In this document: positions 45,786 to 53,700 of the stretch, piece after piece
Position numbering within the stretch: position 1 is the first letter of the stretch
Layout of the letters: the number at the start of each line of letters is the position of its first letter
Source of the DNA: Streptococcus sp. M334
Lineage (GTDB): Bacteria; Bacillota; Bacilli; Lactobacillales; Streptococcaceae
Reading direction: 5' to 3'
DNA: 64,000 nt
Assembly: GCF_000187745.1 (NCBI RefSeq)
Contig: NZ_GL732486.1
Location: forward strand, 611,429 to 675,428
Position numbers and translations under genes: made by a program
Notes under the pieces: generated by a model
The model's input: only the letters and a program-made list of their open reading frames with translations
The model's database searches: none
Told to the model about the DNA's origin: nothing

Positions 45786-46465
<680 letters not shown>

Positions 46466-46517: not shown

Positions 46518-47147
46518 TTATAAATTGCTAAAATCATATAACTGTGGGTACTGGTCACACTCTGGATTTTTAGGATGACAAATAGCTCTTCCAAAATAAA
46601 TCATAGCCTGATGAGCAGCTAGCCACTGCTCCGGTGGCAAGATACCCATGACCCGCTTTTCCACCTCAAGCGGTGTCGCTGATTTTTTGACAATATCGTG
46701 ATGTTTGCAAATACGCTCCACATGAGTATCGACTGCAAAGGCTGGAATCCCGAATCCTACACTCATGACAACATTGGCTGTCTTGCGACCAACACCTGCC
46801 AGACTTTCCAATTCCTCTCGAGTCTGAGGGACTTGACCATCAAAATCGTCTAGTAACTGTTGGGCACATTTTTTAAGGAATTTAGCCTTATTCCGATACA
46901 GTCCTAGGCGGGAAATGTGTGAAGCAATCTCACTCTCTGTTGCAGCAGACATGGCTTGTGGCGTTGGAAAGGCAGCAAAGAGACCTGGTGTGGCCTTATT
47001 TACCGCTGCATCCGTTGTCTGAGCTGACAACATGACCGCAACCAAGAGTTCAAAATGATTGGTGAAATCAAGACTGGGCTTGGCATCTGGAAACAGAGCA
47101 ATGATTTCTTCTAGCACTTTTCGTGCTCGTTTTTTTGACAAGACCAT
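46518..47147 (-). CDS. nth: Endonuclease III (base-excision DNA glycosylase/AP lyase)
   Basis: Nth, 209 residues. It removes oxidised pyrimidines. The HhH motif LAGVGRKTANVVMS (~114-127) with catalytic Lys and the GPD-like catalytic Asp (AVDTHVERI) are intact. Of the four [4Fe-4S] cysteines (C-x6-C-x2-C-x5-C) only the first two remain (CHPKNPEC); the segment then reads DQYPQLYDF. The protein therefore probably lacks the cluster. The start overlaps the stop of the DUF177 gene by one base. Confidence 0.93.
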   Translation of the reverse strand: MVLSKKRARKVLEEIIALFPDAKPSLDFTNHFELLVAVMLSAQTTDAAVNKATPGLFAAFPTPQAMSAATESEIASHISRLGLYRNKAKFLKKCAQQLLDDFDGQVPQTREELESLAGVGRKTANVVMSVGFGIPAFAVDTHVERICKHHDIVKKSATPLEVEKRVMGILPPEQWLAAHQAMIYFGRAICHPKNPECDQYPQLYDFSNL

Positions 47148-47689
47148 TATTCGTCTCCGTCAAATAGTCCTTGTAAGCCAGCAAAAGGACTGTTTTCTTC
47201 TTTCTTAACTGCCTGTTGAGCTTGGTATTCTTCCTCAGTCATGATTTGCCAGTCATTTCCTGAAACAAATCCTTGACCAGCCTCTTCTTCAGCCGTCAAA
47301 ACCTTGATAGGAATGTTTAGTAGGATATTATCTGACACGCTCTCAGCAAGGTCAAGTTCTCCATTTTCGATAGGCAAGACCAAATCATCGTCTAAAACTT
47401 CCTGATCTAGTTGGTTAGTTGCGCCTTCCATGAAAACTTCTGTGACTGGATAAGATTCAACTAACTCAACTGGCTCCATACTGCGACTTGAAGCAAGAAC
47501 AATGGTGTAAGATAGTTGATAATCTAAGAAATACATACGGTCTTCGTACTGTACTTTCCCAACCGCAAGGATATCTTTTACATCTAAAATTTCTTGATTA
47601 CGTGCACGCAGGTCTGCGGCTAGGTCTAACGTTTGTTCAAAATGCAAGCCTTCAGACTGCTTACGAATTTCTTGAATATTTAATTTCAT
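47147..47689 (-). CDS. YceD/DUF177-family protein
   Basis: 180 residues, acidic. The DUF177 pattern is visible in the central VSYTIVLASSRSMEP-like segment, LVLPIENGELDLAESVSDNILLNIPI (in parts, ~104-128) and the LFDGDE tail. In many bacteria it precedes rpmF and is linked to ribosome/rRNA biology; here it precedes nth instead. Function not established. Confidence 0.85.
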   Translation of the reverse strand: MKLNIQEIRKQSEGLHFEQTLDLAADLRARNQEILDVKDILAVGKVQYEDRMYFLDYQLSYTIVLASSRSMEPVELVESYPVTEVFMEGATNQLDQEVLDDDLVLPIENGELDLAESVSDNILLNIPIKVLTAEEEAGQGFVSGNDWQIMTEEEYQAQQAVKKEENSPFAGLQGLFDGDE

Positions 47690-47857
47690 ACTTCCTCCAT
47701 AAAGATTTACTCTCTTGATTATACCATGAAAAGCCTACAAATCAGCCCACCAAACTTTGTAATTAAAATTCGATTTTTTAACATATTTACTATGACATTT
47801 TTGTTTTTTAGTGCTATACTATAGGTAAGAATACATCAGAGCAAGGAGGATGCTCAC

Positions 47858-47911
47858 ATGGAAGACAAAGAACTCATTACTAATGCTTACCACTCGGATT
47901 TTAGAGCTTAG
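47858..47911 (+). CDS. Leader peptide candidate upstream of ABC-F gene (17 aa)
   Basis: ATG 47858 to TAG 47911, sequence MEDKELITNAYHSDFRA, with AAGGAGG about 9 bases upstream and a good promoter 38 bases before it. Too short for domain assignment. Role as a regulatory leader peptide is inferred from position. Confidence 0.55.
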   Translation: MEDKELITNAYHSDFRA

Positions 47912-48087
47912 AATTTCCAGTTTTCTGTTGACAAAATATCCTTAAAGGTATAGGATAGAGGTACTAATACTCGGAGGTAAGGGAGACATGAACAACTAAG
48001 TCTATCAAATAAAGAACCTTTATTTAGTAGATCTTGTTTTTGTCTCTTTTTGTGTGCTCGTTTCATACTAGATTTTCTAGTATCTTA

Positions 48088-48205
48088 TCCTCATTGAAAA
48101 TCAAAAAACTAGAAAGCTAACCATCTGCTCCTCTTGAGTTGTATTAGGCAATCCTAAGCTAGTTTGACGAGCTTTTCAACGGGGATAATAGAGTTTTCGA
48201 TAGTG
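48088..48205 (-). repeat. Degenerate BOX-like element within the ABC-F leader
   Basis: Minus-orientation resemblance only: CTCATTGAAAATCAAA and ACTAGAAAGCTAACC match reversed boxC, CTTGAGTTGTATTAG resembles boxB, and GAGTTTTCGATAGTG resembles reversed boxA. Many mismatches, so this is a decayed copy or chance similarity in the second half. Confidence 0.4.
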
Positions 48206-48275
48206 ACTTTGGGCTCTACTAGGTAAAGTAGAGCTTTTTGTTATGCATAATCGACATTCTAGAAAGGGCAATCAT

Positions 48276-52274: not shown

Positions 52275-52395
52275 TTTTTAATGTCATCCCGTGAGGTGAC
52301 GAAGACGCAGAAATACTTGAAACTCTTTAAAGTCTAGATTTTAGAGAAGTCTTACTCTGAGGGCCTATTGCTGTAAAATAATGGGCTCTTTTTTG
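52275..52395 (+). promoter_or_regulatory. PyrR-type attenuator leader of uracil permease
   Basis: The leader contains GTCATCCCGTGAGGTGAC (52284-52301), matching the PyrR recognition hairpin seen before pyrR. A terminator follows: GAG-GG-CCTATT with AATGGGCTC (a 9-bp stem with a 2-base bulge, 52358-52389) and T6. The start codon is 22 bases downstream. Uracil uptake is thus under the same UMP-PyrR control as pyrR-pyrB-carAB. Confidence 0.85.
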
Positions 52396-52416
52396 ATGCC
52401 CAAAAGTGAGGTTTAT

Positions 52417-53700
52417 ATGAAACAAGAATCAACTGTTGATTTGTTACTAGACGTTGACCAACGTCCTTCGGCTGGAAAAGGAATTCTCCTTAGTTTCCAA
52501 CACGTTTTCGCCATGTTTGGTGCGACCATCTTGGTACCATTGATTTTGGGAATGCCTGTATCTGTTGCCCTTTTTGCTTCGGGTGTTGGAACACTCATCT
52601 ACATGATCGCAACTGGTTTTAGAGTTCCAGTTTATCTAGGATCATCATTCGCCTTTATCACAGCTATGTCGCTAGCTATGAAGGAACTAGGAGGAGATGT
52701 ATCAGCTGCACAAACAGGGGTTATCCTTACAGGTTTTATCTATGTCCTTGTGGCTGCTGGTGTTCGTTTTGCAGGTACAAAATGGATTGATAAACTCTTG
52801 CCACCAATCATCATCGGACCTATGATCATCGTTATCGGTCTTGGACTTGCAGGTTCAGCTGTTACCAATGCTGGTCTTGTAGCAGACGGGAATTGGAAAA
52901 ATGCTCTTGTAGCCGTTGTTACTTTCTTGATTGCTGCCTTTATCAATACAAAAGGAAAAGGCTTCCTACGAATCATTCCATTCCTCTTTGCCATTATCGG
53001 CGGTTACCTCTTCGCACTAACTCTTGGCTTGGTTGACTTTACACCAGTTCTTAAAGCTAACTGGTTTGAAATTCCTGGTTTCTACTTACCATTTAGCACA
53101 GGTGGTGCCTTTAAAGAATACAATCTTTACTTCGGTCCAGAAACTATCGCTATCTTGCCAATCGCTATCGTAACAATTTCTGAGCATATTGGAGACCATA
53201 CTGTTTTGGGTCAAATCTGTGGCCGTCAATTCTTGAAAGAACCAGGTCTTCACCGTACTCTTCTTGGTGACGGTATCGCAACTTCTGTTTCTGCCTTCCT
53301 TGGTGGACCAGCCAATACAACTTACGGAGAAAATACAGGGGTTATCGGTATGACTCGTATCGCTTCTGTCTCAGTTATCCGTAACGCTGCCTTTATCGCG
53401 ATTGCCCTTAGCTTCCTTGGTAAATTCACAGCCTTGATTTCAACTATTCCAAATGCTGTACTTGGTGGTATGTCTATCCTTCTCTATGGAGTTATCGCCA
53501 GCAACGGTTTGAAAGTCTTGATTAAAGAACGTGTTGATTTCGCTCAAATGCGTAATCTCATCATTGCTAGTGCCATGTTGGTACTTGGACTTGGAGGAGC
53601 TATCCTTAAACTCGGTCCAGTTACCCTTTCAGGTACTGCCCTATCAGCCATGACAGGAATCATCTTGAACTTGATCTTGCCATACGAAAATAAAGACTAA
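52417..53700 (+). CDS. pyrP: Uracil permease (NCS2 family)
   Basis: 427 residues from ATG 52417 (GTGAGG upstream); the longer frame from 52381 starts inside the attenuator. NCS2/UraA nucleobase:proton symporter with about 12-14 hydrophobic helices. The family signature is visible in SEHIGDHTVLGQI (~260-272) and the conserved GGPANTTYGENTGVI (~299-313). PyrR control supports uracil as substrate. Also called uraA. Confidence 0.93.
   Translation: MKQESTVDLLLDVDQRPSAGKGILLSFQHVFAMFGATILVPLILGMPVSVALFASGVGTLIYMIATGFRVPVYLGSSFAFITAMSLAMKELGGDVSAAQTGVILTGFIYVLVAAGVRFAGTKWIDKLLPPIIIGPMIIVIGLGLAGSAVTNAGLVADGNWKNALVAVVTFLIAAFINTKGKGFLRIIPFLFAIIGGYLFALTLGLVDFTPVLKANWFEIPGFYLPFSTGGAFKEYNLYFGPETIAILPIAIVTISEHIGDHTVLGQICGRQFLKEPGLHRTLLGDGIATSVSAFLGGPANTTYGENTGVIGMTRIASVSVIRNAAFIAIALSFLGKFTALISTIPNAVLGGMSILLYGVIASNGLKVLIKERVDFAQMRNLIIASAMLVLGLGGAILKLGPVTLSGTALSAMTGIILNLILPYENKD

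Follow-up and report, generated by a model that had tools for sequence, protein, structure and literature searches.

The closest precedent for the leader described here is that of the vmlR gene of Bacillus subtilis (PMC9226507). There, a short upstream ORF, uORF(MIN), lies within a first hairpin that acts as an anti-antiterminator, and the leader further comprises a NusG-dependent pause and a hairpin that sequesters the main Shine-Dalgarno (SD) sequence (SL-2, SL-4). Tiny uORFs were also reported before cplR (MR[I/M]), vmlR2 (MK[L/Q]) and lsaA (MAGN) (PMC10201436). In Clostridioides difficile, the three-codon uORF(MRI) of cplR is hidden in a 5' hairpin and followed by a terminator located before the ABC-F gene; induction depends on stalling, the main SD is likewise held in the terminator stem, and attenuation acts on transcription and translation together (PMC10201436). 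In streptococci, msrD is an ABC-F gene controlled via ribosome stalling on its leader; it responds to macrolides and is a named resistance gene (PMC10314930).

The leader analyzed here occurs in a 64,000-nucleotide stretch of the genome of Streptococcus sp. M334, hereafter the window. It shares with that of vmlR a three-codon uORF with an SD, here within a predicted first hairpin, an intrinsic terminator (T2) further downstream and an ABC-F gene, together with an antiterminator that would be favoured by a ribosome holding the uORF, here by prediction. The three-codon ORF had been considered extremely short in the original prediction, which is not exceptional given the published MIN of vmlR, MR[I/M] of cplR and MK[L/Q] of vmlR2. 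The peptides MIN, MDN and MDK all occur in the streptococcal set described below, MDN and MDK being forms that worked in vmlR (PMC9226507). Differences from vmlR reside in the ABC-F protein, which is another one, in the partner of the antiterminator, which here includes the T2 loop, and in the presence of BOX-like repeats between the two arms in many mitis-group leaders. The likeness to cplR is one of anatomy. In contrast to the cplR terminator, T2 is separated from the start codon ATG 48276 by 39 nt, whereas it had been proposed to end directly before it. Control via ribosome stalling on the leader would also bring this locus close to that of msrD, whose product, unlike the present ABC-F, is a named resistance factor.

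The features of the locus are given in Table 1. The leader is preceded by a divergent ORF on the minus strand (47147-47689), and an alternative in-frame ATG for the ABC-F gene exists at 48243. Both the MNN ORF and its SD are present in the sequence as originally described, with the 5' arm of hairpin 1 opening at 48000, right after the MNN stop. The transcription start associated with promoter P2 is supported by the start of the match to Rfam family RF02436 (111.6 bits for a gathering threshold of 70, all 99 positions being matched) and by its fit to the lengths of two published RNAs, F43 and srf-19. The upstream promoter-like site P1 is not needed for the switch. Two other RNA elements were observed in the window: SpF44_sRNA (Rfam RF02437), at 52281-52375 on the plus strand, which stops just before an ORF (52381-53700) that by eye we take to be uracil-permease-like, and a PyrR binding-site leader at 46319-46451 on the minus strand. 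Like SpF43, SpF44_sRNA looks like a 5' leader and not like a free small RNA.

Table 1. Features of the ABC-F locus and of its leader; positions are those of the window
Feature	Position	Strand	Basis or remark
Promoter-like site P1, ATGACA-17-TATACT, TG before -10	47792..47820	+	In few loci
17-aa ORF MEDKELITNAYHSDFRA	47858..47911	+	Rare
Sigma-70-type promoter P2, TTGACA-17-TAGGAT	47928..47956	+	Transcription start ~47963
Rfam RF02436 SpF43_sRNA match	47963..48061	+	Leader 5' part (SL-1)
Shine-Dalgarno GGAGGT of uORF	47973..47978	+	Sequence
SL-1, proposed anti-antiterminator	47979..48050	+	Predicted fold
SL-1 outer stem	47979-47988 with 48041-48050		Takes in the uORF spacer and the first start-codon base
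uORF Met-Asn-Asn-stop (ATG AAC AAC TAA)	47988..47999	+	Sequence; conserved
SL-1 inner stem	48000-48014 (region 1) with 48018-48032		
Region 2, SL-1 3' arm (CUUUAUUUAGUAGA)	48018..48031	+	Alternative partner of region 3
BOX-like repeat, in loop between the two antiterminator arms	48074..48177	+	Genome matches
T2, intrinsic terminator hairpin, then TTTT	48211..48236	+	Terminator scan; conserved
Region 3, T2 5' arm and loop	48215..48228	+	14 bp with region 2 (antiterminator)
ABC-F ATPase gene, 508 aa	48276..49802	+	Start ATG 48276 behind AAAGGG

Together, these features suggest that the ABC-F gene is quite probably controlled by a uORF-dependent transcription attenuator of the vmlR kind, in which an antiterminator competes with T2. 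The RNA would begin at ca. 47963 and, when no ribosome is stalled, SL-1 (47979-48050) would form and tie up region 2; with region 2 sequestered, T2 would form and transcription would stop at ca. 48240 to yield a short leader RNA; in the mitis group, transcription might also end earlier, just past SL-1. A ribosome held on the three-codon uORF, by drug stalling either at initiation or within Met-Asn-Asn, would cover the base of SL-1 together with region 1. Region 2 would then be free to pair over 14 bp with region 3, T2 could not form, and RNA polymerase would read through into the ABC-F gene, the product of which is expected to relieve stalled ribosomes. Stalling as the trigger and the sensing of drugs as inducers are both proposed here by analogy with the leaders described above, and the ABC-F protein itself would protect ribosomes. 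The uORF, SL-1, the antiterminator and T2 are conserved by computation, with compensatory changes in the antiterminator and in T2. On the structural features tested, the leader is thus vmlR-like by anatomy and genus-wide in Streptococcus.

The central idea first proposed, that read-through into the ABC-F gene is permitted by a ribosome stalled on a tiny ORF, is well supported by both anatomy and comparison. The logic of two independent checkpoints, however, would give way to that of a single 1:2 / 2:3 / 3:4 switch whose conserved terminator is T2. A ribosome on MNN would indeed sit over the 5' arm of hairpin 1; its main effect, though, would be to free the 3' arm for pairing with T2.

The occurrence of the uORF was assessed in 169 oriented upstream regions, 168 from Streptococcus and one (L017) from another family, after exclusion of low-identity matches to other ABC proteins (L023-L030, L090-L092). 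Because several genomes are present twice in this set, the numbers below are locus counts and not species counts. A short ATG frame preceded by an SD was found in 150 of the 169 regions and corresponds mostly to MNN, MKN or MDNNK, all 150 including a form from the tally of 139 distinct leaders. In this tally, MNN accounts for 85 leaders, MKN for 23, MDNNK for 9, MIN for 4 and MDSNK and MIH for 3 each, with nine further forms shared by the remaining 12; the uORF has three codons in 123 cases and five in 16, and the stop is TAA in all 139. It is kept even beside orthologues having only 40-46% identity with the window protein (MIN in L016, MNN in L020 and MKN in L022). The 19 regions with no ATG match include incomplete ones (L021, L050, L061 and L134) as well as L154. 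A uORF with a similar SD was otherwise found to start with TTG (LKN/LNN; L155, L162, L172, L176 and L179) or GTG (VDN; L165). In L120, MDSNK is preceded by a weaker SD; in one clade (L107, L108, L109, L113 and L114) a seven-codon frame, MYKKSIA, replaces M-x-N at the same position, and L019 has a 14-codon frame. In L017, which belongs to another family of the order, a leader resembling this one, with ATG AAG TTA TAA (MKL), is located 313 bases upstream of the ABC-F gene; its arms are, by eye, seemingly complementary and MKL resembles the vmlR2 consensus.

The motif itself is of little weight when taken alone. The pattern GGAGG-N3..12-ATGNNNAAYTAA has one match in the 2.2-Mb genome, as does its reversed control, and 16 matches in 25 genomes versus 11 for the control, so that its occurrence alone proves nothing. 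Ten of these 16 matches, however, are located just upstream of this ABC-F gene, which, together with the presence of the uORF in 150 of 169 regions, places the uORF beyond chance.

The last residue of the uORF is Asn in 116 of the 139 distinct leaders, a situation that would suit an attenuator responding to asparagine limitation, with ribosomes stalling at Asn codons when charged tRNA-Asn is scarce. Such a function is exceedingly improbable: in the other 23 leaders the final residue is Lys (18), His (3), Glu (1) or Ile (1), MIH, MKI and MDK have no Asn at all, the gene downstream is not an Asn gene, and uORF bases 47990-47995 are part of the SL-1 stem, so that pairing constrains them. Asparagine sensing was rejected as a general rule on account of these 23 leaders.

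The 17-aa ORF of the original prediction might be a second sensor. This ORF exists and has an AAGGAGG, P1 having for its part a TG before its -10 box, and a leader transcribed from P1 could in principle carry it. It is, however, located upstream of promoter P2 (47928-47956) and of the published RNA start, the published RNAs fitting a start at P2. Its exact SD and start context was found in only three of the 169 regions, in one of which (L078) the frame is shortened to five codons, with a variant in L040. Transcription from P1 with the 17-aa ORF as second sensor has therefore a negligible probability, and this ORF was rejected as a sensor, being rare, upstream of P2 and reduced to five codons in L078.

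The leader RNA has been seen before in pneumococcus. In strain TIGR4, F43 is an RNA of 99 nt located between SP1281 and SP1282, observed by northern blot and belonging to a set for which both expression and size are stated to have been confirmed (PMC3395615). In D39V, srf-19 (SPV_2317; 1170746-1170923, 178 nt) is listed as an "ncRNA of unknown function" with a footnote, "alternative terminator present", and with the F43 paper as its literature source (PMC6212727). Elsewhere, it is given as a 5'-UTR RNA of SPV_1137 (PMC9812572), or as "potentially an RNA switch"; in the latter source, an RpoD site is predicted in front of it and its expression resembles that of ComX-regulated genes under competence (PMC6560143). 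F43, SpF43 and srf-19 are the same RNA as the window leader, before SP1282/SPV_1137, of which the window ABC-F gene is by position the counterpart. The accessible parts of these four papers (PMC3395615, PMC6212727, PMC6560143 and PMC9812572) give no uORF, antiterminator or mechanism, and no published mechanism for this leader was found in the open-licence literature; to the catalogue entries RF02436, F43 and srf-19, which are sRNA or ncRNA entries, the present analysis adds a uORF and a proposed antiterminator.

L040 is a pneumococcal locus free of BOX in which 178 nt separate the predicted start from a point 4 nt beyond the T2 stem. The short RNA measured in a close relative therefore probably ends at T2, the mapping being made by length and on L040, not on D39. 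Length was used to place srf-19 because an attempt via the published SNP H431Q in SPD_1137 did not fit exactly in residue numbering and was abandoned: residue 431 is a Q in a 519-aa reading and the nearby His of L040 is at 432 in the same count. The distance between the F43 and F44 starts is 4218 in TIGR4 versus 4318 in the window, which is consistent with TIGR4 having no insert in its leader. A transcription start past 48045 had been named in the original prediction as an argument against it; the RF02436 match begins at 47963 instead and the srf-19 length agrees with this.

Since this RNA has been catalogued as an sRNA or an ncRNA of unknown function and is expressed like ComX-regulated genes under competence (PMC6560143), it might be a small RNA acting in trans on targets of its own and located next to the ABC-F gene by coincidence. 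This is highly improbable given the cis features that are kept across Streptococcus, namely its location upstream of the ABC-F gene, a uORF with an SD, and an antiterminator and a terminator that covary; the phrase "potentially an RNA switch" already appears in PMC6560143.

The 99-nt size of F43 bears on the role of hairpin 1, since it points to a second 3' end just after this hairpin. The original prediction viewed the leader as a two-stage system, in which hairpin 1 is a drug-controlled terminator opened by ribosome cover and T2 an independent second checkpoint. Several observations go in this direction: hairpin 1 starts at the base following the uORF stop, it ends in five T in the window, F43 ends just past it with a size said to be northern-confirmed (PMC3395615) and srf-19 bears the mention of an alternative terminator (PMC6212727). 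However, only one of the two strong terminators initially described, T2, corresponds to that definition. Hairpin 1 is predicted to fold into a longer stem involving the uORF spacer and start, and it was absent from the output of the terminator scan of the window. In the full fold (47979-48050), the uORF spacer and start are paired with the T-rich 3' side, and the window T-run at 48046-48050 is inside the predicted stem; it could be a U-tract if the SL-1 stem stopped short of it. Among 71 distinct leaders, the nine bases before the uORF start are paired (at least 4 of them) to the 3' side of SL-1 in 69 and the bases after the uORF stop (at least 6 of 14) in 70, while a tail of at least five T in eight after SL-1 occurs in only 15, a count in which the folded stretch ended within the tail for five leaders, the window included. 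T2 and the antiterminator pairing are conserved, unlike the hairpin 1 tail, and T2 would not be relieved by stalling on the uORF unless an antiterminator exists. The two-stage arrangement is therefore unlikely, and hairpin 1 was rejected as the conserved terminator because of its infrequent T-rich tail (15 of 71). In the predicted fold, it is better read as an anti-antiterminator, SL-1, that would hide the uORF start. SL-1 may nevertheless also terminate in the mitis group, as the 99-nt F43 leads us to keep it as a possible additional terminator in that group.

The pairing between region 2 and region 3 and the competing T2 hairpin are central to the single-switch model. By a strict rule, T2 was detected in 136 of the 139 distinct leaders, one of which (L121) turned out to be the wrong hairpin; this leader and the three with no T2 by that rule (L020, L137 and L158) were left out of the duplex and fold-switch tests. 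In the window, region 2 (48018-48031) can form 14 bp with region 3 (48215-48228). When the 95 nt following the uORF stop were confronted with the 5' half of T2 in 135 leaders, representing 64 unique pairs, the best duplex had a mean of -17.1 kcal/mol versus -13.0 kcal/mol when T2 halves were swapped between leaders, and in 54 of the 64 pairs no more than 2 of 200 dinucleotide shuffles matched the native duplex. In the swap test, the native partner came out on top for 5 of the 64 pairs and within the first ten for 37; T2 halves hardly differ among mitis-group leaders, which makes the test weak in that group. The best duplex begins more than 30 nt past the uORF stop in 12 of the 135 leaders, mostly owing to an extra hairpin, and in L022 it lies outside the aligned region 2.

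Covariation was examined in an alignment (A1) of 38 rows that was built without structure from 67 leaders with no long insert, near-duplicates being removed. The antiterminator helix has 86.0% of its cells paired in A1 (0/500 shuffles reaching this value) with 46 cells showing changes on both sides compared to 14.5 in shuffles (0/500); such changes concern 7 of the 12 pairs versus 3.7 in shuffles (2/500). Slid versions of the same helix have only 30-46% of cells paired and 7-14 both-side cells, a control that is safer than shuffles because the latter take no account of relatedness. Pair types at the antiterminator in A1 are no more numerous than in shuffles (15 versus 14.7; 259/500). The antiterminator count is lowered by six loci (L011, L123-L126 and L142) that are mis-aligned in region 2 of A1 and were yet kept. 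For T2, 96.1% of the cells are paired in A1, with 17 both-side changes versus 3.0 in shuffles (0/500). Examples of antiterminator arms that have changed together are provided by UUUAUUUAGUAG with CUACUAGGUAAA in the window, ACUUUAUCAAG with CUUGAUAAAGU in L016, ACCAUAUCAGGU with ACCUGAUAUGGU in L166 and CCUUAUUAAGC with GCUUAAUAAGG in L171.

Two other elements were observed around T2. One is a GTCTTTTT-like stretch located between SL-1 and T2 (ca. columns 180-189 of A1) in loci with no insert, in which the T columns are nearly invariant and which lies behind a possible hairpin in several loci; the window has a shorter T-run at this position, next to its insert. This stretch could be a pause site or an extra terminator. 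The other is a basic ORF of 48-49 aa (e.g. MKHLDQLKKQVKQ...) found between T2 and the ABC-F gene in more distant Streptococcus (L016, L018, L157, L163 and L154), which would share the control exerted by the leader because of this location.

In the window, the two antiterminator arms are separated by an insert. With 40 of 102 candidates scored, the segment 48070-48210 was found to match 39 other places of this genome in part, or 40 with its own copy; these matches together span 48074-48177 and most of them cover only part of the insert. BOX elements are multicopy modular repeats of pneumococcus and its relatives, in which boxB is 45 bp long, and we tentatively take the insert to be a degenerate BOX element; two 45-bp units occur in L077. 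Based on the distance from the uORF stop to T2 in 60 distinct mitis-group leaders, 23 have no insert, 32 are longer by ca. 95 bases and 5 by a larger number. The antiterminator duplex is preserved in each of the 37 leaders with an insert, with values of -16.5 to -20.1 kcal/mol. The presence of a mobile-type repeat inside the switch represents a natural experiment.

The effect of a ribosome on the leader was predicted by minimum free energy folding of 105 leaders, in which the upstream part and the ribosome footprint were made unavailable. T2 was present in all 105 free leaders. When the last sense codon occupied the P site, T2 was replaced by the antiterminator in 75 of the 105, and with the AUG in the P site in 50, while T2 stayed in all 105 when only the part upstream of the uORF was blocked. 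In 30 leaders, no switch was obtained even at the later of the two ribosome positions. For the window, both ribosome positions gave the antiterminator when upstream bases were blocked; when these were left free, the AUG position gave the antiterminator while the later position left T2 in place, region 2 being paired with the 5' end. Covariation and the predicted switch, the latter not in all leaders, both indicate that the antiterminator is mutually exclusive with hairpin 1 and with T2. Since very short uORFs sense early stalls, pleuromutilins, lincosamides and streptogramin A would by analogy be the likeliest inducers; the stall expected of early-acting drugs, with the AUG in the P site, is the weaker case of the switch (50/105). 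Why 30 leaders do not switch, and why the later position has the stronger effect, must still be explained by the attenuator model.

The protein encoded downstream is widespread in the genus, a match to the ABC-F at E <= 1e-60 being found in 189 of the 217 Streptococcus genomes searched. Orthologues with 92-93% identity occur in S. mitis, S. pneumoniae, S. pseudopneumoniae and others, which places the window genome in the mitis group; no relative was found in the viral contigs searched. The protein has two ABC domains and is related to ABC-F proteins. Its closest relatives in the PDB by sequence are two YheS chains followed by one entitled "ABC-F type ribosomal protection protein" and then by chains named ExpZ and ABCF1. 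With the NCBIfam ribosomal-protection ABC-F model NF000355, its score of 302.5 bits is below the cut-off of 380, and scores with the Sal, Msr, Vga, Lsa and OptrA models are all far below cut-off. Judged from its sequence, the protein reaches the cut-off of no named resistance family and is not filed as a resistance factor. An AlphaFold model made from 11 close sequences had a mean pLDDT of 40 and was set aside.

Initiation-stage ABC-F factors act at the first peptide bonds. A more speculative proposal, which we hold only tentatively and regard as rather doubtful, is that the switch is a feedback gauge of ABC-F activity and not a drug detector, the gene encoding a core streptococcal ABC-F, possibly SAF1, that would serve as an inducible ribosome-rescue factor. 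The uORF would in that case report the completion of the first peptide bonds, and the gene would be read only when this step is slow, as under drug, cold, competence or other translation stress. SAF1 is a Firmicutes ABC-F group that is not among the resistance factors predicted by Murina et al. (PMC6723617).

The 139 distinct leaders, with MNN, MKN, MIN, MIH, MDNNK and other forms, constitute a natural data set on tiny stall-sensing peptides and positions. The leader model would also give a mechanism to a pneumococcal RNA (F43/SpF43, srf-19) that has long been of unknown function. If the attenuator model is right, streptococci, including pneumococcus, have a built-in inducible response to ribosome stalling and, should the feedback gauge prove true, an intrinsic rescue factor would be present in most of the genus, pneumococcus included.
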